From Prorocentrum cordatum (Eukaryota; Sar; Dinophyceae; Prorocentrales; Prorocentraceae), in NCBI GenBank assembly GCA_963575745.1, contig CAUYUJ010019370.1, positions 509,703 to 573,702 on the forward strand: a stretch of DNA of 64,000 bases, in the 5' to 3' direction. Made by a program: the position numbers and the translations under genes. Below the pieces are notes generated by a model that was not told the DNA's origin, ran no database searches, and saw nothing but the letters and a program-made list of their open reading frames with translations. The number at the start of each line of letters is the position of its first letter. Within the stretch, counting starts at the first letter, position 1. Below, piece by piece: positions 10,701-50,840 of this stretch.

Positions 10701-13700
10701 ATGGACACGACTCGCAGTGCGCTCCTGCGCGAGACCATCCGCAAGGAGTAGAGGAACAAGCATGGCGTAAGCATGAACTTTCAAACTTCCGCACGGATGA
10801 TGTCTCGGGTCTGTGCTGGGCCCCCCAGGCGACGCCTCCGCTTCCGCCCCTACGCCAAGGAGGGGGGCCAGCGCAGATTCCAGAAATTCCTGCGGGGTCC
10901 GAAAGTTTAAAGTTTATGTAGTTTCTAATGCATCACAGGAGATGAGGATGAACTTCAAGCATGTAGATGAGCTGCGCAGGAAAAAGGGCCTGCCCCTCAG
11001 CGCGTCGGCAGTGGTACTGCCCCCGCTCAAGAAGCAGAGCTGTGCCGACAGGCAGCTGGATCAGACTATGGGCCTAACGAGAGATCCGCACACCATGACC
11101 AAGGAGCTTAGAGGAGAAGGGATTAGGAGGGTGGGCAGGAGGAGGAGGAGGAGGCGGAGTTGCATGAGGGAGAGGAGGAGAATGAGGAGTATGAGGATAA
11201 GAAGGAGGAGGAATGACTGGGAATGACAGCAGGCCACGATGTGGCGTGCTTTCCTGGCACGGGGGAGGCCCAACGGACACGAGCCTTTGGGTGCTCCTCC
11301 CCCAGCCACGTGCGCCACCACGAAGACCTCGCCCAGCGGCACCGCCAACACACAGATCAGGGATGCAGCTCAGGGAGAGGCATAGCGCATAGCGGGGCGG
11401 CGCCGAGCTCAGCACTGCACGGTCAGCAGCACCCACCAGGGCGCGTGCTCCGCGCGTGACCGCGGCAGCGGGATGCATGCCAGAACAGTGCCGTCGCCGA
11501 CGCTGGCGTCGTACACTTCGATGCCCTCGACCGCGGGCTCCACGACTGCCCCGACCGCACGGGCCGCCAGTTGGCTCCTCCAGGCCAGCCTGTACTAGGC
11601 CGATGTGCTCGCCCCGCTCCTCCACCACGCTCCCTGGCGGGAAGGCGGGGGGCTGTCCGCACAAAAGCACGCGCAGGCGCATGCTCCAGCTCCGGGGATC
11701 TTCGGGGGCGTCTCGTCAACGTCGGCCATGTCATTCAACTCGCACGGTTCCACCTCATTGTCCTCCATCTCGCTACCATCGCACAGCACGTCGTCGTATT
11801 CATCGACGTCGTAGTAATGCATTCCGTCGCCTTCACCATCGCCTGCCGCCAGCGGGTCCGGCTCCGCCAGCAGCACGTCGGCATCATTGCCCCGCCGCAC
11901 AGAATGCTTCGCAGCGCTTGCCACGAACTGCGGAGCCGTGTGTGCCACACTGCGCCTCGGACCTGGCAACTCTCGCAGGCCCAATTGCGACCACGCAACT
12001 CTTCACGGTGCACTCGATCACACCGTGGGTCTCTCACATGGGCCATTCATTGTTCCGAGCCCGCATGGCCGTTTGCCTTCTCGCCCATGCGCCGCTTCCA
12101 GCGTGCATTGCAGAGACCTTGTGCCAGGAAGCGATTGCCTCACTGCGTGCAGCTTGGAGGTCTGCTGGGCCGCGCGGAGCGCCGTCGCAGCAGCACGCAG
12201 CAGCTGCGTAGCGTTGTGCCTCGGCCTCTGCAGCCACGTGGGCGCGCGTCCCGCCACCAACGCCACCAGCGCTTGCAGCAGGCACCAGACTCGGGTGCCG
12301 AGGATCGCGTTCCTGTTTTTCCTTTGGGAAGCGTCTCAGATGAAAGTAAAGAACCACCGCCACCCGAGAACCCTCTGGTGAGGGGGGCGGCGAACTCTGG
12401 CCGGTGGCACGCCCGAGCGTCACCGGGTATTGTACGGCACGACGTTCAGGCGTGCCACCGCCCAGGGGTTTGGCCCCCCCCCCCTGATGGGTTGTGGCTC
12501 TAGGCCTCCCAAACGGGGTCGGAGTAGATGGGGTCGGAGGATCGCGCCGCATCGCGGATGCATCGCCGATGCGGCTCGATGTGGAGCACGATTTGCTTCA
12601 CGTCGACGTCGCCGATGCGTCGCCCACGTTGACGATGCAACGACGGTGCATCGCCGATGCATCGACGATGTGTCGCCGATGCATCGCCGATGTATCGGCG
12701 ATGCGGCGCGATCCTCCGACCCCATCTACTCTGACTCCATCCAGGAGGCCTCTAGTGGCGGTGGCCCCCGTTTCTCATCTAAGCCTTCCTCCGCTTGCTG
12801 TCGGCGTCCGCCAACGGCTTTGTAGCCGCGAGACCAGGCTATCTGCCCCTGCACGGACGCCAACAGCGCCACGCAGCGCCGCCGTCGAGCCCCTTCTCGC
12901 AGCCATCCCAAGCGGTCCCGCGTGGCTGAAACGTGTGGAACACACGAGATGCTTGATCCACAGTGGCTACGGAGGAGGATGAGGACCAGTGTAAACCCAA
13001 GACTCGTCAACCATGTTGCAATAAACCTTCCCTCCAAGCTTTCCTCCACAGGGCATGGATCCCTACGACTTTATTTTCATTGCTGCAAGTGCCCCATTAG
13101 AAGACAACCGTTTGAGAATCTCCAGCCGTGCCAAACACACGCACACACATGCACGCACACACACAAACATTCTTCGGACTTCACCGCCGCGAACCAGCGT
13201 GATTGTCGGGTCGTGGAGATCCTCAATCGTACCAGAACACCATTCATGGGATTTCCGCTATACGAGCTCTTGGATGTGCTGCAAGCTTTTAAGACAAAAT
13301 GCGTGGCGCTAGGGCAGGATCAACAGTTTGCAAACGACCCGCCAGCCATTCGTGAAGCCGCTGCAAAGTTTCAAAACGAGTGCGCGCGGCGCTAAGGGGA
13401 GAGCCACATTGTGGAAACGACCCGCCCTCCACCCGTGAATTTGCTACAAAGCTTGAACGGCGAATTTGCGTGGCGCTCAGACCAGAGCCACGCGTTCGAA
13501 TCGGCTCGCCCTCCGTTAGTGCAGCTCTTTCAACTGTCAAGCTCCAGGATCATAAAGGGTGAGGAAGTCTCAGTCGAAACGCCGGGCTTGTCTTGCTGAC
13601 ACGCTTGGGGGTGCAACAGGGGGGAGTTACTCATAAGGAAGAAGGGGTGAATAATAGGAGGGGGATGAGGAATAGGAGTAGGAGGAGGAGGAGGAGAGAA

Positions 13701-39878: not shown

Positions 39879-40123
39879 GATGATGGTGTACACGATGGTG
39901 ATGATGATGATGGCCATGGTGGTGATGATGATGGTGTCCCGATGACGATGATGATGATGACGATGATGCTGATGATCATGATGATGTTGGTGATGATGAT
40001 ATGATGTTGATAATGAAGATGATGAAGCTAATGATGATGATGGTGGTGTGTCGGCGATGATGATGATGAAGTTGATGATGATGATGATGTTGATGATGAT
40101 GATGGTGATGATGATGGTGTCCC

Positions 40124-40166
<43 letters not shown>

Positions 40167-40327
40167 GTGTTGATGATGATGCTAATGATGACGATGATGG
40201 TGTCCCCATGCTGATGATGATGATGATGGTGATGATGAGAATGATGATGAGGTGGTGCTGATGATTTTGATGGTGGTGGCCCGATGATGATGATGCTGAT
40301 GTTGATGATAATGATGGTGTCCCGACG

Positions 40328-40359
<32 letters not shown>

Positions 40360-40772
40360 GTTGATGTCGACGGTGATGATGGTGTCCCGATGATGATGAT
40401 GATGTTGATGATGATGATGTTGCTGATGATGGTGATGGTGTCCCGATGATGATGATGTTGATGATGTTGTTCATGATGATGATATGATGATGATGATGGT
40501 GGTGTGCCGATCATGATGGTGATGACTATGCCCCGATGATGATGATGATGTTGATGATGATGATGATGACGATGATGGTGTGCCGATGATGGTGATTATG
40601 GTGATGCTGATGATGATGATGGCCATGGTGGTGATGATGATGGTGTCCCGAAAATGATGATGTTGATGCTGCTGATGTTGATGGGGATGATGGTGTCCCG
40701 ATGATGATGCTGATGGTTTCAATTTTGTTGATGATGACGGTGGTGATGTGATGAGATGATGATGATGATGCA

Positions 40773-40807
<35 letters not shown>

Positions 40808-43136
40808 CGATGATGATGAAAGGGGTCCCGATGATGATGATTATGATGATGATGATGGTGATGATGATCATGATGATGATGCGATGATGCTGTTGTTGAT
40901 GATGGTGATGGTGCTGATGATGATGGTTTCCCGATTATGATGAGGCTGATGATGATGATGATGCCTATGATGGTGTTTGATGGTGATGATGTTGCTGAGG
41001 ATGATGATGGTGATGTGATGATGATTCTGATGATGGTGGTCCGTCCGATGATGATGATGATGATGATGATGCTGATATTGATGATAATGATGGTTTCCGG
41101 GTGATAATGATGATGGTGACGATGATGGTAACGATGATGATGGTGTCCCGATGATGATGATGATGATGTTGATGATGTTGATGTTTCTGATGATGATGAT
41201 GTCCCGATGATGATGATGATGCTGACGATGCTGTTCATGATGAAGATCGTGAGAGGGTGATGATGATGATGGTGGCCCGATGATGATGATGTTGATGATA
41301 ATGGTGACGATGGTGGTGTCCCGATGACGATGATATGATGATGGTGTTGATAATGATGGTGATGAGGTGATGATGATGGTGTCCCGATATGATGATGATG
41401 TTGATAACGGTGATGACGGTGATATCGATGATGATGATGACGTTGATGGTGAAATCGATTGTGATACCGATAGTGATATCGATAGTGAAACCGAGTGTGA
41501 GCTATATTGTGAGATCGATAGTGAGATAGATTGTGAGATCAATAGTCATATCGATTGTGAGATCGATCGAATGAAATAGATCGAGTGATATCGATTGTGA
41601 GATCGATCGAGCGAGATCGATCGAGCGGCACCGATAGTGAGAATAAGATAGATAGCGGGACCGATCGAGTGAGACGTTGGTTCCTCGCTCCCCCAAACCT
41701 CTTTATGCCGTGCGTGCGTGTGGGCGAGGCGAAGCTGCGTGGGCGGGCGAGAGGAAATCCTCCTGTGGCTGGGCCGTGGCAATACCAAATGTTGCTCCTC
41801 CGGCGGCCGGTGCCGCGCGGTGTCCCGCCGGTGTCCCGCGCTGGTGTTCCGAAGTACTCCTGTGGCTGGGCCGCGGCCAGACCAAATGCCGCGCGGTGGC
41901 TCGCCAGTGTCCCGCTGTGACCCGTGGTGTCCCGTGGTGTCCCGTTGAGTGAGATCGATCGTGAGATCGATAGTGAGATCGATATTGAGATCGATGTGGT
42001 GTTCCGTGGTGTCCCGTAGTGTCCCGTGGTGTCCCGTTGAGTGAGATCGATAGTGAGATCGATGCTGAGATCGATGTGGTGCCCCGAGGTGTCCCGTAGT
42101 GTCCCGTGGTGACCCGTTGAGTGAGATCGATAGAGAGATCGATAGTGAGATCGACAGGTGTCCCGAGGTGCCCCGTGGTGTCCCGTTGAGTGAGATCGAT
42201 AGTGAGATCGATAGTGAGATCGATGTGGTGTCCCGATGTGCCCCGTGGTGTCCTATGGTGTCCCGCTGAGTGAGATCGATAGTGAGATCGATAGTGAGAC
42301 CGATAGTGCGATCGAGAGGTGTCCCGCGGTGCCACGGGACACTTGTCGATCTCACTATCGATCTCATTATCGATCTCACTCAGCGGGACACCATAGGACA
42401 CCACGGGGCACCACGGGACACGTCTCGATTTCACTATCGGTTTCATTATCGATCTTACTATCGATCTCACTCAACGGGACACCACGGGACACCTCGGGGC
42501 ACCACATCGATCTCACTTTCGATCTCACTCAACGGGACACCACGGGACACCTGTCGATCTCGCTATCGGTCTCTCTATCGATCTTACTCAACGGGACACC
42601 ACGGGACACTTCGGGGCACCACATCGATCTCAGTATCGATCTCATTATCGATCTCACTCAATGGGACACCACGGGACACCTTCGGGCACCACACCGATCT
42701 CAGTATCGATCTCACTATCGATCTCACGATCGATCTCACCCAACGGGACACCACGGGACACCACGGGTCACAGCGGGACACCGGCGGGACACCGCGGGTG
42801 TCCCGCTGTGTCCCAGCCGCGGCCCAGCCACAGGAGGATTTCGGGACACCTGCCGGACACCGCGCGGCACCTGCCGCCGGAGGAGTTACATTTGGTCCGG
42901 CCGCGGCCCAGCCACAGGAGGATTTCCTCTTGCCCGCCCACGCAGCTTCGTCTCGCCCGCACGCACGCACCGCACGCACGACACGAACCCGAAACCAAAA
43001 ATCGATTTTCCGGCAGGGGGGGTCTCCGTTTTACGTCGGATTCCCCCCCGTTTTCCGATACATATGTTTTTATATATATATATATATAATTCATTTTTTA
43101 TGTATATATATACACATACATATATATATATATATG
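39547..43136. repeat. composite satellite block bounded by TA tracts
   Basis: The block begins in (TA)n (39,547-39,620), then a repeat head (39,621-39,807: GGAACGGAGA, AAATCGGTTTCGGTTTCGTG, GGCGAGGCGAAGCTGCGTG, GTGTCCCGCCG). About 1.6 kb of GAT satellite punctuated by GTGTCCCGATGATG follows (39,808-41,430), then 12-mer satellite, then a second head (41,660-41,950). After that come GTGTCCCGTG/12-mer units that invert at about 42,338, an inverted head (42,770-43,060), and (TA)n (43,068-43,135). No gene is present; long Asp/Met/Ser/His/Arg frames are artefacts. Confidence 0.85.
41660..43010. repeat. large inverted repeat, about 1.3 kb
   Basis: The left arm (about 41,700-42,330) reads head, then GTGTCCCG units, then GTGAGATCGATA units. 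The right arm (about 42,345-42,985) reads the same in reverse complement. The axis is the small palindrome GTGTCCCG-CGGTGCCA-CGGGACAC (42,320-42,343). Arms match imperfectly, with small indels. Confidence 0.8.
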
Positions 43137-43598
43137 GACAGTTTTAACAACGTGATGCAGAGCCCTGGGGGAGAGTGCCGCACGTTCGTTATGTCAGGTC
43201 TTGCCTTCGGTTCTCCGCTGACATATGTGCTCAAGTGCATTGAGGAAGGTTGCTCGATGAGCTTCAGCGAGTGGCTCACAACCGAAGCAGTCCGCTCCGC
43301 CACCACGAGCCTGGCGGTCTGGGCGGCGAAGCCCGAGTGTCCGCCGTGCACCTGCAAGCCATCGCTGGTGTGTGGCAGTGGGTCGGAGCCTCAGAGGCTG
43401 GACTGCCCACACCAGGTGGGGACCTGGCCGCTGTCGGCCGTCGTGCTGGCCGCGGTGCTGGGCCTGGCCGCTGGCGCGTTGCTGGGCTTTTGGTTCACTC
43501 CACCTGCTCCGACGCGGGCTCTGACGACGACCGACCAGTTCGAGGTGGAGGCCCGTGCCCAGGCTGCTCTGGTTCGCGGGCGGCTGCAGGTCCAGTGA
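43134..43598 (+). CDS. ORF1: small transmembrane protein of the DIRS-like element
   Basis: 154 residues. The first ATG (43,134-43,136) uses an A from the flanking TA tract, so the element's own start may be Met 8 (43,155); both lie in or at repeat A1. A Cys-rich patch (PECPPCTCKPSLVCGSGSEP) is followed by a clear membrane segment (WPLSAVVLAAVLGLAAGALL, then GFWF) and a short polar tail. It ends 4 bp before the gag ATG. No homology was recognised. A membrane protein encoded first is unusual for this class, and an anchor for the gag particle or a spurious upstream ORF are both possible. Confidence 0.55.
   Translation: MDSFNNVMQSPGGECRTFVMSGLAFGSPLTYVLKCIEEGCSMSFSEWLTTEAVRSATTSLAVWAAKPECPPCTCKPSLVCGSGSEPQRLDCPHQVGTWPLSAVVLAAVLGLAAGALLGFWFTPPAPTRALTTTDQFEVEARAQAALVRGRLQVQ
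43137..43239 (+). repeat. split direct repeat A1
   Basis: Identical to A2 at 49,726-49,828; the identity extends 2 bp left (TG) on both copies. It is followed by TTGAGG here but by CCCACC at A2. Confidence 0.95.
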
Positions 43599-43602
43599 GG
43601 CC

Positions 43603-45030
43603 ATGTCGGCGGCGGCCGCCGCGGCCGCGGGCCATCCCCTCGCCCGCCTCGGCCTGGATGAGGGGGACTTCATCTTGATCCGATACCAGGTCGGGGGGGC
43701 GAGGATCTGGCATGAGCGCCTCCTCCTGGCCTTCCAACCTGTCGAGCCCTTTGGGTGCGGGATCCTGACCCCGGACGGGCACGACTACGTCGAGATCATC
43801 GCAAATGGAGGCGCGGACGTGGCCGAGTTCTGCATCACAGCTGGAGGCGCCGCTGGAGGCAACTCGGCGGCGACTGGAGGGGACCAGGTCTACCGGTTCC
43901 GCGCCCTGCCTCTGCCGGCTGCCGTCGCTGCCGCGGCCACCGCCACTCGGGGCACGCTCGGGCTCGCTCAGGGTCCGGCCGTGGCCCTGAACACCGTGGG
44001 CCGGGTCATAGAGCCGCCCGCTGTCGCTCCTGCTGCTGCTGGTGTCCCTGCCGCCGCGGGCGGCCCGGCCGCTGGCGGCGTGGCGGGCCTCGCGGCGGCC
44101 CTGGGGGCGCCCGCTGCGGTCGGTGCGGCGGCCCTTGGAGCAGCGGCAGGCGCGCTCGTGCCGGCCGCAGCGCCTGCTGGGGCCGCGCTGGGAGGCGGCC
44201 TTGTGCCGGTGGCCGGCGCCCTCGCGGCTGGCGCTCCGCTGGCCGCCGGGCCCGTGGGCGTCCCCGCTCCCGCAGCCGCCGCGCCCGCCGCAGCGGCCGC
44301 CGCACCTGGATGGGCCGACATAGGGGCGGGCGCCCTAGCGAATGCTTTCGCCGCAGTAGCGGCGGCCCCTGGCGGCGACGCACGGATGCAGGCCGTCGTC
44401 CAGGACTCCCAGGGGGTCCGTTACGTCGACTTCAGGACGGCCGTGATGAGGATGCACGAGCTGCCGTGGCATGACTGGCCGCTCAAAGGGCCAAGGACGT
44501 TGTTGTGGGTGCTGAACTACATATGCCGCAACGGTGGCACACCGCTCGGGCGCCACACCAAGTGGAAGGCTGAGGCCTACCTGGACGACGAGGATCCAGG
44601 GGTGGACGTGCACCTGCTGTGTTGCAGGCTGTTGGAGTTCGGTGTCGTGTATGATCAGACCCACGCGACCAATCTAGCGTCGATGGAGCTGGTTGGCCGC
44701 ACGCTTCAGACCCAGGAGGAGCTGTACCGCGACAGGTTCGCGCCCACGTCCGAGCATGGGAACGACGCCGCGCTGCTGTCCGGCGTCCAGGATGCGGGCA
44801 GCGGCATCTGCATGGCCCCGGCGCTGCGCGACTGGCTGGCTGCCGAGAAGTCGCGCGAGGCGGCGATCGCCAAGGAACGGCGCAAGGCTCGCGAGGAGCG
44901 TGCTTTTGCCGCCGGGACTGGCGCTGCTGGCTCTGGCGGCGGCGAGGGGCGCGGAGGCCGTGGCCGCGGCGGCCGAGGCCGAGGGCGACGGGGCCGTGGG
45001 GGCGGCAATACCCCAGGCGCCGATGCCTGA
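43603..45030 (+). CDS. ORF2: gag-like protein of the DIRS-like element
   Basis: 475 residues. The N-terminal segment (LDEGDFILIRYQVGG, RIWHERLLLAF, DGHDYVEIIA) looks globular. About 150 residues of Ala/Gly/Pro/Val low complexity follow, then a folded part (DFRTAVMRMHELPWHDWPLK, TLLWVLNYICRNGG, TKWKAEAYLDDEDPG, HLLCCRLLEF) and a charged helix (EKSREAAIAKERRKAREER). The end is RGG/GRG-rich (GRGGRGRGGRGRGRRGRGGG), typical of RNA binding. No zinc knuckle is seen. Position before the RT and the basic tail support a gag role, probably RNA packaging. The stop falls inside the open pol frame (+1), so pol could be expressed by frameshifting or reinitiation. Confidence 0.65.
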   Translation: MSAAAAAAAGHPLARLGLDEGDFILIRYQVGGARIWHERLLLAFQPVEPFGCGILTPDGHDYVEIIANGGADVAEFCITAGGAAGGNSAATGGDQVYRFRALPLPAAVAAAATATRGTLGLAQGPAVALNTVGRVIEPPAVAPAAAGVPAAAGGPAAGGVAGLAAALGAPAAVGAAALGAAAGALVPAAAPAGAALGGGLVPVAGALAAGAPLAAGPVGVPAPAAAAPAAAAAAPGWADIGAGALANAFAAVAAAPGGDARMQAVVQDSQGVRYVDFRTAVMRMHELPWHDWPLKGPRTLLWVLNYICRNGGTPLGRHTKWKAEAYLDDEDPGVDVHLLCCRLLEFGVVYDQTHATNLASMELVGRTLQTQEELYRDRFAPTSEHGNDAALLSGVQDAGSGICMAPALRDWLAAEKSREAAIAKERRKAREERAFAAGTGAAGSGGGEGRGGRGRGGRGRGRRGRGGGNTPGADA

Positions 45031-47530
45031 GATGAGCCGAGGGGGGGCAGACGGGCCAGCCTCCCCTCGGGACTGCTTCGCGGCTCCCGCCGCAGGCCCC
45101 CGGCCGCCAGGGACACGACGCCAGCGCGACGTTTTCCCGCTGCCGGTCACACCGACCGCTGCTCCGCGAGCTGTGGAGCCTGGCGGTCGACGCGCTGCTC
45201 GTCGGCGCGGCCTTCGCGCTCATCATGATGATCGTGTTCGAGCGGCCACCAATGCACTCAATTCACTCTATGGCACTCGGTCCTCGCCTCCGTCTGCTGC
45301 GCACGAGGGGCAGCGCCAGGCCATCGTGCATATCGACCGATGCGTCAAGGAGCTGGGCGCGCCGCCGCCCGAGTTCAGGGACACGCGTTCTGGTCAAGAC
45401 GGGGCCCTCCGGGAGCTCCTCTCCTGCGCCAACCTGTACGGTTCGGGCGCCGCCTCGTCGTCCCCCTACGTCCGCGACCGAGTCGCATGGCCCGCTGGTG
45501 GTGCCGCGCCCGTCGAGCTTGTCGAGTTGGTGCAGCCCCATGACAAGGCCTGGCTGGAGGGATGGCAGAGCCATATGCTTCGAGATCGGCAGTCCGCCGA
45601 GGCCTTGGCACGTTCGGCCTGCCCGCGCGGGCCGTACTGCGACCCGAACCTGTTCCGGGACGCGACCGCCTATGGCCAGTTTTTGATGGAGATGCACCGG
45701 AGGCAGATGGTTACTTTCGCGGCTGACACCGGTCAGCCCCACACCGTCGGTCTCTTCTTTGTGCCCAAGAAGTCGGGGGCCCTCAGGATAATTTTCGACA
45801 CGAGGGCCGCCAACTGCAAGTTTTTGGATCCGCCGGCTACGAGGCTTCCCTCAGCTGCGTCTTTCAGCGCAATTGAAGCCCCGGCAGACGGCATGTACCT
45901 TTCCACGTGCGACCTGGAGTGCGCCTTCTACCACATGCGGCTGCCGCGCGGGATGGAGACGCTGTTCACCCTGCCGTCGATCTCGGTCGCCGTGTTGCAA
46001 GAGCTCGGCCTAATCGACCTTGACTTCGATCCTCTCTCGCGCGTGGCGCCCATGGTGACCGTCCTCCCGATGGGCTTCTCGTGGGCTTTGCACTTCTGCC
46101 AGTCGGCTGCGCGCGCTGTCCTTGCTGCGGAGGGCCATGAGAGGGCCATGACCGCCATGGACGGCCAAGCCGGCGTTGTGGTCACGGACCCGGTCTCCGT
46201 CGGCGTCGGGGCTTACGTTGACAACATCCTGGCTTTCGGTGCGGAGAAGGGCGCGGTCGACCTGGCTATGACACGGCTGGTGGCCGCCTTCCGTGCTCGA
46301 GGGCTTCCTGTCCACGAGATCGAGCCCGCCGCAAAGGACCTGGACTTCTTGGGCCTCAGTTTGAAGCACGGGAGGTACCTCAGGATCAAGCCGCGGAACA
46401 TCTGGCGATTGCACTCGGCAATCACTGGGCTTCTGAGGCGGGGCTGGTGCAGCGGCCACATGATGCGTGCGGTGCTGGGCCATGTGACCTGGTCGTCCAT
46501 GATCCGCCGGGAGGTACTCACGGTGCTCCACAGCGCCTACGGCTTCGTGGCGGCTTACGGCGAGAGGCAGGGCAGGATCTGGGCGGCGGCGGCGAAGGAG
46601 TTAACTATCATCCGTGACCTCCTGCCCGTCCTGTCCGGCGACCTCGCTGCCGCGTGGCACCCCACGCTGACGGCTAGCGACGCATCGCCTTTCGGTCTTG
46701 GGGTGATGCGGAGACGCGCGCCTCGGGCCGTCTGCGCCGCCGTCGGGCGCTGCTCGGAGAAGTGGCGTTTCAAGGTCGAGGGCGGGCACCAGGCCCGGCT
46801 CCGATCACTGCGAGAGGGCGGCCTGGAGCGCCCCAGCGTTGAGTCAGAAAACGTCGACCCCTCTCGGCCGCTTTCTCCAATCGACCCTTCACAGCTCGGT
46901 GTTCATCACGTTAGCCCTGTGGGCGGTCAAGCAGGTTTGGCGTCATCGTGTGTCTTGGGAGCTACGTGTACCTCTCCGGGCCTGCAGGGGGACCCCTACA
47001 AGGAGCTCATGGGCCAGCACGGGGACCCCTACGTGGAGCACGTGGGCCTGCATGAGGGCCCCTTCATCTCCAAGGGCCAGCACGGGGACCCCCACGTGGA
47101 GCTCAAGATAGACAACAGCCTCACGCGTGCCAATGCCTCTTACGTCGAGGGCGACTCTTGGGACATGGAGGAGGTTCCTGGGCACCTTACTCGCATGGAT
47201 GCCTGGAAGTCAGTCTCGGCGCAGTCGGTCTCCACGGGGGCCAACATACTGTACCTGGAGGGGGAGGCCCTGGTCACGTCCTATCGCCATCTCCTCCGAG
47301 GTTTGGGCGCTCATGGGGCTCGCATGGTCGCTCTTGTGGACAACCTCCCCTTAGCCCTCGCCTGCGCGAAAGGAAGGGCTCGGTCAAGACACTTGAGGTC
47401 GTGCCTGAACCAGCTGTGTGCACTGTCCTTGGCCACTGGCTCGAAGTTGTTGGTCCGCTGGATTGCCTCGGAGCGTAACCCAGCAGACGGCCTCAGCAGA
47501 GGCAAGCTTGGCTGGTTCACCGGCCATCGA
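44693..47530 (+). CDS. ORF3: reverse transcriptase-RNase H of the DIRS-like element
   Basis: The frame is open from before the gag stop; sensible coding starts near 45.2 kb. RT motifs in order: VGLFFVPKKSGALRIIFDTR (45.75 kb); motif A STCDLECAFYHM (Asp codon 45,911); motif B VLPMGFSWALHF (46.07 kb); motif C AYVDNILAFG (46,211), where the second catalytic Asp is Asn (YVDN); then DFLGLSL. The RNase H shows LTASDASPFGLG (Asp 46,679), LYLEGEAL, ALVDNLPLA and RWIASERNPADGLSR, the usual D-E-D-D order of DIRS/Ty3-like RNase H. A 33-bp tandem repeat is inserted inside the RNase H (46,987-47,105). It would copy element RNA to cDNA. The YVDN change and the repeat make full activity doubtful. Confidence 0.8.
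46987..47105 (+). repeat. 33-bp in-frame tandem repeat inside RNase H
   Basis: Units GDPYKELMGQH, GDPYVEHVGLH, EGPFISKGQ and HGDPHVEL arise from a GGGGACCCCTACGTGGAG-type unit. The array keeps the reading frame. Confidence 0.75.
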
Positions 47531-47544
47531 CACCTTGGCCATGC

Positions 47545-48530
47545 GAGGACCCGCTCTGGCCGTCGCGGCGCTCGGCCTTCTGCTCGGGTTTCTGGCACGC
47601 GAGGCGCAGGCCATGCAGAGGCAGATGGCCCCTACGTCTCCAGCTCGGACTCGTCAGCGCGCCCAGCTGGCGGCGGCGGCGGCGCGCGGGCGGCCTCTGG
47701 TGGGCGCCCTGACGCTCCTGGGGCAGCTGTCCGTATGGCCGAACACGGAGGCCATGTACAGGCGGCTCCTGCAGACGTTCCTCACGTATTGCTGGGTCCA
47801 CCGCCGGGATTGGAGCCACTCGCGCGAGCTGGACTGCCTGCTCGTCGAGTACTGCACCTTTCGCTACATCTCGGAGGCGGTGCCGAGCGTCGGACCGCAG
47901 ACGGTGGCAGCGCTGACGCTCTTCACGCCGGGGCTCCACAGGCGGGTGGGCTCGCCTTTGCCCCGCGCCTCACGTGCTCTGCAGGCGCGGCGGAGGCTGG
48001 CCATGACCCGCACGCGTTTGCCCACCCCGAGGGCGGTCATGTTCGTGCTGGTGGGCGTCCGTATCGCCTGGCAGCAGGCGCCGAGGGCGGCGCGGCTGGC
48101 GAGGCCGTTCTCGGTATACCTCAGGCCCGCCGAGACTCAGCGGCTGCCCACGGACAGCATCGTGGAGCCCTCGGCGCCAGCGGGCCCAGCCTGCCAGTTC
48201 TGGCACTTTCTCCTCCACCCCGCAGGCCGCGGGCAGGCGGGCGAGACGGGGGCTTCCGACGAGAGCGACGTCCTTTTGTCCCAGTGGAGGTCGCAGGAGC
48301 AGTTTTACCAGCGAGGCTGTTGGGCTGTGCCATCATCGATGATGAGGTACGCGAAGGGGACGGCCCTCTTCCGCGAGCTGAGGGGCGTGCTTTCGACCAT
48401 GTACGTGTTCGGCGACCTGGCCGCGCAGAGCTCCGCGCTGCTGATCGTGAAGGGCTGCGCAGGCGCGGGGCTGCAGCGGCGCACTCCGGCCAGCCTGCTG
48501 GAGGCGCTCATGGGCGGTCCAGCGCGGCCC
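47545..48530 (+). CDS. ORF4: tyrosine recombinase of the DIRS-like element, probably deleted
   Basis: In the frame starting ATG 47,545, the N-terminal core-binding part is present (YRRLLQTFLTYCWVHRRDW, LLVEYCTFRYISE, LPRASRALQARRRLAMTRTR). Box I follows with its Arg: VYLRPAETQRL (Arg codon 48,123). Then come FLLHPAGRG and GETGASDESDVLLSQ, and the C-terminal RGCWAVPSSMMRYAKG with the candidate nucleophile Tyr (48,348). Tyrosine recombinases need an R-K-HxxR-H/W-Y set. No HxxR is visible, and about 100 residues usually found between the Lys-Thr-Gly-like segment and the Tyr box are absent, so an internal in-frame deletion is likely. Intact, it would integrate the circular cDNA. Translation must change frame from the RT. 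Confidence 0.65.
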
Positions 48531-48640
48531 GAGCGTGCGAGGCGACGGCCTGCCAGCCGCAGCTGGGCGCTGCCTGCTGTGCCGGCGCCAGTGCTGCCGC
48601 CGGCCCAGGGCGTCAGCGGCCGCGACTGGGCAGCTCCGAG

Positions 48641-49453
48641 TGCGCCGACCACCTGCGGCGCCGCTTCAAGGCTGCGGTCAGCCGCGGCTCGCTGTGCCGA
48701 CGTCGGGTGGTTCTGGAGCTTTTCTGCGGCAGTGGCCATTTCTCTGCCGCCGCCCGCCGCCTGGGCTTGTCGGCGCTCGGCCTGGACCTCCGGCTGTCGC
48801 CGCTGGAGGACCACTGCCGCCGCGATTTCGAGCGGGTGGTGTCCGGCTGGCTCCGCAGCCGCGCCGTGGCAGCCGTCTTCCTAGGTACGCCCTGTACGAC
48901 GTGGTCTCGAGCGCTCCGGAAGGCTCTGAGGTCGCGCGCCCATCCGATGGGCCTCGGCGGCCTCTCGGCATCTGAGATTGCCCGCCTGACTACGGGCAAC
49001 GCCTCGTTCTACTTTACATGTCGCATCATACGTTTATGCTGTAAGTTAAGCATACCTGTGATGCTCGAGAACCCTGCTAGTTCTTTAATGTGGCATGCCA
49101 AGCTTCTTTCGTCCCTCATCATTTCGCAGTGTGCACGGGTGTGTGATTTTGATCAGTGCCAATTCGGTACACCCTGGCAAAAAAGGACGAGGATTGCGGC
49201 CTGGAAGACAGGCCCTCTTTCCGACTTGCATCGGCTCTGTAAGGGCCGCCGGGGTCTTTGCTCTCGCACGCATAATCGGCATACCATTCTCACGGGCCAG
49301 GCCCCAGAGGGCTGTAAATATACTGCGTTGGCCGCCGCCTATCCCGCTAGCCTGTGCACGGTGTTGGCCAAAATTGTCAGAGAGGCTGTTCTGAAAAAAC
49401 CACAACAAACCATGGCCGATTTAATATGTAAGCCGCCTGCTTTCCACATCTAG
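48641..49453 (+). CDS. ORF5: SAM methyltransferase-like domain of the DIRS-like element
   Basis: The reading frame is that of the RT. Rossmann motif I: VVLELFCGSGHFSAAARRLG (48.71 kb), followed by LDLRLSPLEDH. A PC-containing motif: FLGTPCTTWSRA (48,881-48,913). Then PVMLENPASSLMW (49,058-49,095). FxGxG, GxPCxxWS and the E-N-P string are laid out like motifs I, IV and VI of cytosine-C5 methyltransferases, with Cys 48,893 as candidate nucleophile. The usual ENV is ENP and the target-recognition part is short. DIRS elements often carry a methyltransferase domain, usually likened to adenine-N6 types. A role in methylating element DNA is inferred. It ends at TAG 49,451, just before B1. Confidence 0.6.
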   Translation, partial: CADHLRRRFKAAVSRGSLCRRRVVLELFCGSGHFSAAARRLGLSALGLDLRLSPLEDHCRRDFERVVSGWLRSRAVAAVFLGTPCTTWSRALRKALRSRAHPMGLGGLSASEIARLTTGNASFYFTCRIIRLCCKLSIPVMLENPASSLMWHAKLLSSLIISQCARVCDFDQCQFGTPWQKRTRIAAWKTGPLSDLHRLCKGRRGLCSRTHNRHTILTGQAPEGCKYTALAAAYPASLCTVLAKIVREAVLKKPQQTMADLICKPPAFHI

Positions 49454-49516
49454 CAACCTTCATATTTTCTTCGGCCTTACGGCTAAAGCTACAGGCCATA
49501 TCTTCCTTATGGGGTA

Positions 49517-49725
49517 TGGGACCTCATCTGTATGTGCCTCGCCGTCTGTTACAATAGGTGGTCAATGCTAGTACCTCTCGTCCGGCAGTTATCTGCCGTG
49601 CCTGGCTCGTGCTTCACACATATGATGTAAAGAAGCGCTCCTGCCCGTCGTCGTCACCGTCGGCACCGGTCAGGGCTGCGTATGTCATCTAATAGATCTG
49701 GCACTCGTCTAATCAGGGCGGGCTG
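49517..49725 (+). repeat. split direct repeat B1
   Basis: 209 bp from TGGGACCTCATCTG to AATCAGGGCGGGCTG, identical by eye to B2. Its end fuses directly with A2. Confidence 0.95.
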
Positions 49726-49828
49726 GACAGTTTTAACAACGTGATGCAGAGCCCTGGGGGAGAGTGCCGCACGTTCGTTATGTCAGGTCTTGCCTTCGGT
49801 TCTCCGCTGACATATGTGCTCAAGTGCA
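49726..49828 (+). repeat. split direct repeat A2
   Basis: Identical to A1. It is separated from B2 by 51 bp of unique sequence. Confidence 0.95.
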
Positions 49829-49879
49829 CCCACCCGCATGCCGCCCTCACTTGAATCCTTTTTAATGCAGCCTTTTTCT

Positions 49880-50088
49880 TGGGACCTCATCTGTATGTGC
49901 CTCGCCGTCTGTTACAATAGGTGGTCAATGCTAGTACCTCTCGTCCGGCAGTTATCTGCCGTGCCTGGCTCGTGCTTCACACATATGATGTAAAGAAGCG
50001 CTCCTGCCCGTCGTCGTCACCGTCGGCACCGGTCAGGGCTGCGTATGTCATCTAATAGATCTGGCACTCGTCTAATCAGGGCGGGCTG
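49880..50088 (+). repeat. split direct repeat B2 (right end of element)
   Basis: Identical to B1. It ends GGGCGGGCTG, immediately followed by (TA)n. Confidence 0.95.
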
Positions 50089-50840
50089 TATATATATATA
50101 TATATATATATATATGAACGCTTTGTACATCTCAAGGGCGTCCTTGGGAGGCTCACTGCCCACTTGGAGCGTCTTTGGGCAGTTTTGGAGCCTATTTGAG
50201 GCATGTTGGCAGTCGTCGTTAGCCATCCTGCGATTTCTTGAGCCATGTTGGGCCACCTTGGACGCTTTGACCGCTCGCCCCCCCCCACCCCCTACACCCA
50301 GTGGAGGGGCCGAAGGACCCTCCTTGTTTGGATGGACAGCCACAGGGGGAGCCAACATGAAACAGGCGCCAGTTGCGTGACGCGCCGCGCGTGCCAGGTG
50401 CGCCACGCGCACCAGGTGCGCCAGGCGCCGCACCACGTTCTCCACATCCGCCAAGTGTACCGCGTGCACCACCCGCGCCAGGTGCGCCACGTGCGCGGGG
50501 CGAGCAGAGTGTGCCAGTTGAGCTAGTACACACATTGGCCCTCCACATTCACCTTACATTGTTGTTTTAACAAGGGTTCTGGGCCTGCGCATACCAGACA
50601 ATCTGCGGGCACCCTGCCATCGTTGCCAACCATACATAAGAGTAATCGCGCATCCCCCGCGCATGGTATTGTGCCAAACCCTCCTGTGAGTTGATCCCTT
50701 GTTTTGAATCTGCAGCGCTGCGCCCCACCTCTCCTCCTCGACCTTGTCATCAGCATCACCGTTATCGTGAGCATCGTCATAGTCAGCGTCACCACCATCG
50801 TCACCATCACCATCATTTCTATCAATGTGACCACCGTCTT
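50089..50840. other. flank: TA tract, CTTGGG repeats, GCGCCAGGTGCG repeat
   Basis: (TA)n at 50,089-50,114, CTTGGGAGG-type repeats at 50,120-50,260, and a short-unit repeat, CGCCAGGTGCGCCACGCG, at 50,370-50,510. No gene recognised. Confidence 0.6.

Follow-up and report, generated by a model that had tools for sequence, protein, structure and literature searches.

The dinoflagellate Prorocentrum cordatum carries a PAT/Toc-type DIRS retrotransposon, in a copy that inserted recently, at 43137..50088 of a 64,000-nucleotide stretch of its genome (contig CAUYUJ010019370.1, positions 509,703 to 573,702; this whole stretch is referred to as the window). The element has split direct repeats in the order A1...B1-A2-B2 and encodes a gag-like protein, a reverse transcriptase (RT) with RNase H, a tyrosine recombinase (YR), and a DNA methyltransferase (MT). 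Taken as a whole, the evidence makes it probable that this copy belongs to a sublineage in which YR was inactivated, and which borrowed YR in trans while its other proteins served it mainly in cis. The searched genome has 4,128,499,153 bases in 21,875 contigs, in which the window is C18521:509703-573702.

Loss of the tyrosine recombinase in two lineages

The YR frame of the window spans 491 codons from stop to stop (47409..48881, plus strand) and lies inside the pol frame, shifted by +1. It aligns with the YR of relatives. All seven rows of the alignment retain R239, R344, and W368, and six retain the active-site tyrosine; the window’s own YR is broken. The window and two further loci, L011 and L012, share one in-frame 189-bp deletion (at 48262..48263 of the window, plus strand), by which 63 residues including the catalytic box II with its arginine region are gone. 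The box lysine is also substituted in the window. Hence, the RT/RNase H and YR genes reported in the preliminary description are present, but the recombinase is incomplete. Among the 94 of 13,119 candidates scored, YR is split at this deletion point at these three loci only, and full-length 448-codon YR open reading frames (ORFs) with 96–100% identity occur at at least 11 loci. L027 and P0007 have a cysteine in place of the active-site tyrosine, which is another sign of frequent YR decay.

Nonsynonymous (N) and synonymous (S) changes were counted from nucleotide alignments, and YR was compared with the pooled gag, RT, RNase H, and MT, leaving out the Ala-rich middle of gag and a small ORF. Between the window and L012, YR has 18 N/8 S versus 17 N/48 S in the pooled genes (p 2.5e-4). 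When compared with the intact L013, the window has 64 N/32 S in YR versus 72 N/176 S (p 3e-10), and L012 has 68 N/26 S versus 75 N/176 S (p 1.6e-12). Intact pairs of the same family exhibit no such YR difference (L013-L019 p 0.56, L017-L018 p 0.40, L016-L014 p 0.45), and neither do L013-L027 (p 0.36) and L019-L027 (p 0.30). We then inspected the stem changes, which the window and L012 have in common but which neither L027 nor any of nine intact copies shows. The stem YR has 36 N/12 S and fits neutrality (p 0.87), while the N/S counts are 0/17 in gag, 0/16 in RT, and 0/3 in RNase H. The MT region has 7/11, with five of the seven N changes falling in the domain P0003, and is constrained relative to neutrality (p 0.002). 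As judged from these alignments, YR appears to have been inactivated in the sublineage by the in-frame deletion before its members inserted, and to have drifted neutrally afterwards through at least two insertions.

Two other origins of the YR difference were rejected. A foreign, older YR patch is discounted by the synonymous divergence of YR, which falls among the values of the other genes. Intron removal is discounted by the aligned breakpoints, as the lost stretch starts with GT but does not end with AG. The absence of stop codons from the YR of deleted copies is uninformative, with chance P values of 0.08 and 0.14.

The three loci could also be segmental duplicates of a single inserted copy that lost its YR in place, i.e., an ordinary dead copy. 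L011 and L012 are indeed 17.4 kb apart on one contig with a common left flank (95.9%), and the right flank of L011 is that of the window. Moreover, L011 (C1555:18143-25094) is a perfect mosaic of the window and L012 in four tracts with no private mutation. In contrast, the window and L012 share neither flank, and each is located at its own AT run with A1 identical to A2. Of 6951 sites, 130 are different between the two, and gag, RT, and MT are constrained while YR is near neutral. The unlike flanks on both sides indicate that at least two insertions carried the 189-bp deletion, and a second family repeats the pattern of YR loss independently. A dead copy is thus an unlikely explanation.

In that second family, which is about 69% identical, L030, L035, and L036 share an in-frame 264-bp YR deletion that removes the box I arginine, and L029 and L037 are without it. 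In comparisons between the three deleted copies, YR has a ratio of nonsynonymous to synonymous rates (dN/dS) of 1.07–1.63, as opposed to 0.16 between the two intact ones, while MT and RNase H have a dN/dS of 0.09–0.21 between deleted and intact copies. The YR contrast reaches significance for L030-L036 (p 0.0013). In the 19 copies whose RT and MT could be paired, the RT–MT spacing is 4079–4131 bases in nine, 4344–4400 bases in nine, and 4439 bases in one. Among the 94 of 13,119 YR candidates scored, there is a match for each of the nine long forms (one of them partial) and for none of the other ten. Sequence was read for three short and two long forms of this family.

Recombinase frame nested in pol and integration at (TA)n tracts

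Complete intact copies have a pol frame of 1654 codons without a stop, which begins upstream of RT and reaches the end of MT. It contains the entire 448-codon YR frame at an offset of one. Shuffling of synonymous YR codons predicts 2.2–8.4 pol-frame stops in the 13 rows tested, and 12 of the 13 have none, close copies of one family being non-independent rows in this test. The codon-permutation P value is 0.0018 for L013, 0.0002 for L029, 0.0042 for L031, 0.039 for L033, and 0.0034 for L034. The other forward frame has no stop depletion, except in L028 (P 0.03). The linker amino acids are not conserved, as the pol-frame dN/dS exceeds 1 in L013-L027. Therefore, the frame stays open while its product is not conserved. 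According to the parts of the literature consulted, a pol/YR overlap is known in DIRS1-like elements, in which, different from the present element, the catalytic part of YR lies outside the overlap (PMC3266345), and an extensive YR/RT overlap has been stated for DIRS elements (PMC6681497). Because YR lies within the pol frame, in-frame deletions alone keep MT joined to RT, which fits the losses in both YR-deleted lineages being multiples of three. The YR frame of L013, L019, L029, and L031 starts with a hydrophobic stretch that by eye resembles a signal peptide, which is odd for a nuclear enzyme.

The right ends abut alternating-AT runs of at least five in 22 of 22 cases and at least six in 20 of 22. 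With the element’s own G set aside, the left ends abut runs of at least three in 18 of 18 cases and at least six in 14 of 18. As a background, 0.12% of the window positions outside the element start a run of at least six. The end rows are partly non-independent: L011 has the left flank of L012 and the right flank of the window, and L014 and L015 share their left flank. Since the ends abut such runs, integration favors (TA)n tracts. Across families, the left end reads TAT-G and the right end GC(T)-ATAT, with the hyphen marking the element border. An extra G is kept at the right end of the window, L011, and the distant relative L034. Owing to these ends, the circle junction GC-T-G and the target TAT-ATAT have a T in common, at which YR would carry out recombination. 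The circle junction equals the joined ends and no target-site duplication was found, although the TA-rich target limits the detection of a short TA duplication.

These features can be put together with the published DIRS model as follows. The element RNA would be reverse transcribed, with the internal B1-A2 serving as the template that joins the two ends, and a circle with the junction GC-T-G would form. Recombination by YR would then take place between the circle junction and the T of a (TA)n tract, without duplicating the target. The YR-deleted sublineage would have spread by means of YR provided in trans from intact relatives, whose junction core is nearly identical, while gag, RT, RNase H, and MT stayed under purifying selection and would thus act mainly in cis. 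Borrowing of YR is the simplest reading of copies that have no active YR, yet essentially the same ends as their YR-intact kin. The constraint on the other proteins argues that these are not simply borrowed too, i.e., for a preference in cis.

A different account holds that selection moved to the overlapping pol frame, and that the deleted lineage makes an RT-MT fusion integrating along a different route, in which the host recombines circles into TA tracts. In its favor, all three copies with the 189-bp deletion have an open pol frame, the deletions are multiples of three, and a longer stretch of the overlap has a pol-frame dN/dS of 0.68–0.74 among the window, L012, and L013. However, the overlap is near neutral in both frames, and zero stops are expected by chance (P 0.08–0.14). 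The integration signature GC-T-ATAT also resembles that of YR-intact relatives, save the extra right-end G in the window and L011, which L034 has as well. We consider this account quite improbable.

Several observations weigh against YR borrowing in trans and the frame nesting described above. The 189-bp deletion occurs at three loci only, and the mosaic of L011 may be due to gene conversion or misassembly. The stem MT is less constrained than gag, RT, and RNase H (p 2e-4), and the stem filter, which takes codons identical in the nine intact copies and L027, works against N changes where genes are constrained; the pair tests, being unfiltered, are independent of it. In the second family, the YR dN/dS of deleted versus intact copies is 0.40–0.74 rather than 1, and the YR contrast is non-significant in L035-L036 (p 0.11). 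MT drifts too among L030, L035, and L036 (dN/dS 0.29–1.12; 13 N/4 S in L030-L035), which is expected if these are older insertions. The missing YR matches of the short forms rest on the 94 of 13,119 candidates scored, among which the single 4439-base form has no YR match either. As for the nested frame, L027 has one pol-frame stop across YR (P 0.036), L028 is frameshifted in pol across YR, and the short L030 row is non-significant (P 0.08). Finally, mobilization in trans is deduced from sequence.

Anatomy, relatives, and class of the element

The element is inserted in a TA-rich tract, which forms its left flank (43071..43136), and is followed by a perfect (TA) run on the right (50089..50115). 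The TG at 43135-43136 equals the TG at the B1 end, representing shared crossover bases. All features of the element are on the plus strand. The left split direct repeat A1 (43137..43239) has the same sequence as A2, the internal copy of the left end (49726..49828). B1, the internal copy of the right end (49517..49725), has the same sequence as B2, the right split direct repeat and right end of the element (49880..50088). A2 and B2 are separated by a 51-bp spacer (49829..49879), while B1 directly adjoins A2 to form the circle junction. Identical repeat copies and an internal junction equal to the joined ends had been proposed in the preliminary description. Exact alignment bears out both, with A1 and A2 identical at 103/103 positions and B1 and B2 at 209/209. 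When 15 bp of the right end are joined to 15 bp of the left end, the resulting 30 bases are exactly those of the internal B1-A2 junction.

The small membrane-type ORF, RGG-tailed gag, and MT noted earlier are likewise all present. The small ORF (43257..43595) encodes 113 residues with one hydrophobic segment and a Cys-rich first half, the membrane reading being made by eye. Its dN/dS is 0.19–0.42 among the pairs compared and 0.29–0.41 in the YR-contrast pairs. The gag-like ORF (43603..45027; 475 residues) has an Ala-rich middle, a conserved C-terminal domain with a dN/dS of 0.02–0.07, and an RGG tail. The pol frame of the window (44678..49450) has 1591 codons from stop to stop and runs uninterrupted from upstream of RT across YR to the MT end. 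Its RT and RNase H part (P0001; 45131..47431) has a sub-threshold match to PF00078 and 23 homologues, and bears a repeat-containing insert ahead of the last RNase H part. The MT domain of C5-cytosine type (P0003; 48653..49450) is the C-terminal part of pol. The repeat ahead of the last RNase H part (46978-47105) is a 33-bp tandem repeat, with a unit length divisible by three; nothing at that place in L029 or L031 matches it.

The RT protein search of the genome gave at least 84 match rows, some loci giving two, with at least 16 loci at 94–100% identity and others down to 44%. The MT search gave at least 144 rows (144 of 12,975 candidates scored). Using the window repeats as query, both A and both B copies were found at 12 of the 20 fetched loci, making 13 complete copies with the window. 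A1 equals A2 in nine of the 13, and one to five sites differ in L011, L020, L022, and L027. L015, L023, and L025 are truncated where their contig ends, with L023 also lacking a left A match. L021 and L026 have no matching A1, and neither has L028, whose B2 is partial. L029 and L030 are too diverged for the query, but each has a B pair of its own, accompanied in L029 by an A pair. In distant families with an RT identity of about 38–46%, L031, L033, and L034 have their own A and B pairs and L032 has a B pair. The A-genes-B-A-B order is kept in families at about 38–70% RT identity. A query made of B1 and A2 matches across the junction at 32 loci with 73–100% identity (40 of 63 candidates scored). 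A second B match is located just downstream at all 32, and the repeat plan is therefore not due to chance. L032 (C17833), C6171, and C9113 have open frames of 3134–3204 codons around MT, which is about twice the usual length.

Other copies with long terminal repeats (LTRs), named in the preliminary description as evidence that would speak against a DIRS-like element, did not appear among the fetched loci or the 32 junction loci, and the same split-repeat plan was found instead. LTR-type integrase families have no match (E up to 0.01) in the nine proteins scanned, which are eight homologues and one own YR. An LTR retrotransposon with terminal LTRs and a DDE integrase is ruled out by this result and the order at the 32 junction loci. 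The surrounding simple repeats and the 4.13-Gb assembly in 21,875 contigs lend some color to LTR elements with scrambled ends or a repeat-driven assembly artefact. This explanation, to which we assign a negligible probability, is refuted by the same order recurring at 32/32 junction loci and in families at about 38–70% RT identity.

The element had been described as a DIRS of Ngaro/PAT type. The DIRS-like assignment with split direct repeats in a dinoflagellate stands, supported by the split repeats of related copies and by the YR of relatives; the closest named proteins are from Prorocentrum cordatum. The element combines RT/RNase H with a tyrosine recombinase, as YR retrotransposons do, and it has the split direct repeats A1...B1-A2-B2 and the MT domain of PAT elements. 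The Ngaro part of the name does not hold. Ngaro and VIPER are without an MT domain as far as the consulted parts of the descriptions go (PMC3266345, PMC4157794), and both are ruled out by the MT. As set apart by published class descriptions, the element is of PAT/Toc type, not Ngaro. A gag zinc finger, which is a Pat1-like feature, was not found by Pfam at E 1, and the gag ORF has no C-x-x-C pair. No DIRS1-like inverted terminal repeats or internal complementary regions pair the element ends or an end with an internal copy; the inverted pairs found are TA runs or short GC-rich matches.

We then compared the element with known systems, based on parts of the respective papers. Its protein content had been regarded as departing from the textbook set, but a C5 methyltransferase has a published precedent in SymbioDIRS-Dnmt3, an A-coding-B-A-B element of the dinoflagellate Symbiodinium (de Mendoza et al., 2018; PMC5890265). 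Both are dinoflagellate elements with the same order and many genomic copies, in which the C5 MT shares the pol ORF with RT and YR has a separate ORF. Unlike the present MT, which has no PF00145 match, theirs was identified by PF00145 and belongs with Dnmt3. The covered part of that account does not mention targeting of TA, nesting of YR, or lineages without YR. MTs of the DIRS class are described there as Dam-like N6A enzymes. Different from Toc-type members of the PAT group, such as Toc3 of algae (PMC4157794, PMC3266345), the MT here is of C5 type and follows YR in the pol frame. DIRS1-like elements (PMC3266345) likewise have gag, an RT-RH-MT pol (RH, RNase H), YR, a pol/YR overlap, and a circle model, but here no inverted terminal repeats were found. 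The VIPER/SIRE system (PMC6681497) also has split repeats A1...B1-A2-B2 and a non-autonomous derivative. SIRE is described as being composed of the two end portions of VIPER, 5′ and 3′, with about 30 bp added, whereas here YR alone is lost with the other genes still constrained, and VIPER is without MT.

The window has a GC content near 60%. To the left of the element, at 40001-42800, a long and imperfect (ATG)n array gives way to arrays whose units are of GATCGATAGTGA type and of 10 bp, and to the right, 50382-50496 holds a degenerate 9-bp GC-rich array. On the minus strand, 12952-12972 is a 21-nt match with three mismatches to the dinoflagellate spliced leader; none of 100 shuffles match. 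It is possibly a relic of a retrocopied trans-spliced mRNA.

Methyltransferase type and implications

Profile searches and a structure model predict the MT to be a divergent C5-cytosine methyltransferase. It matches phrog_757 with an E value of 2.6e-6, and 11 of the 15 family members match at E up to 0.1, while none of the 15 match PF00145 at E up to 1. In a second look at the structure matches of the MT model, all 50 listed are C5 methyltransferases, with HhaI, DNMT1, and DNMT3 in a tie for the fold. None of the 50 listed is a Dam-type enzyme, although a family outside this list may fit as well. The Pfam rows HTH_1 and Amidohydro_2 were rejected as weak and off-target, and AdoMet_MTase PF07757 as weak (2 of 15 members, best E 0.045). 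Searches of viral contigs gave no relative of RT or MT, and those of prokaryote genomes and phage records gave none of MT. PDB sequence searches with both proteins gave nothing usable, including three RecA rows without a stretch passing alone.

In the literature searched, with most subscription journals outside it, we found no report of (TA)n targeting by DIRS elements or of YR acting in trans. As far as the sources were covered, (TA)n targeting and repeated YR-less, otherwise constrained lineages are new. A YR wholly nested in pol and an MT unrecognized by PF00145 may be new as well, no dedicated literature search having been made for these two.

To our knowledge, DIRS elements are among the least understood retrotransposons, not least in the cis action of their proteins and the purpose of their methyltransferases. 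We lean slightly toward a general division of DIRS functions, in which YR works in trans, gag, RT/RNase H, and MT work on the RNA or DNA that encodes them, and YR-less parasites dependent on helpers arise repeatedly and persist. The two natural, independent YR knock-out lineages stand beside intact relatives, offering a comparison without genetics in an alga that is hard to transform. A (TA)n-targeting recombinase would offer a simple assay, and could help to explain how such elements avoid genes. The constraint on MT compared with YR after YR loss points to a role of MT in the element’s own cycle. If true, selection on the methyltransferase would be independent of YR, from which it would follow that the enzyme is of use to its own encoding element.

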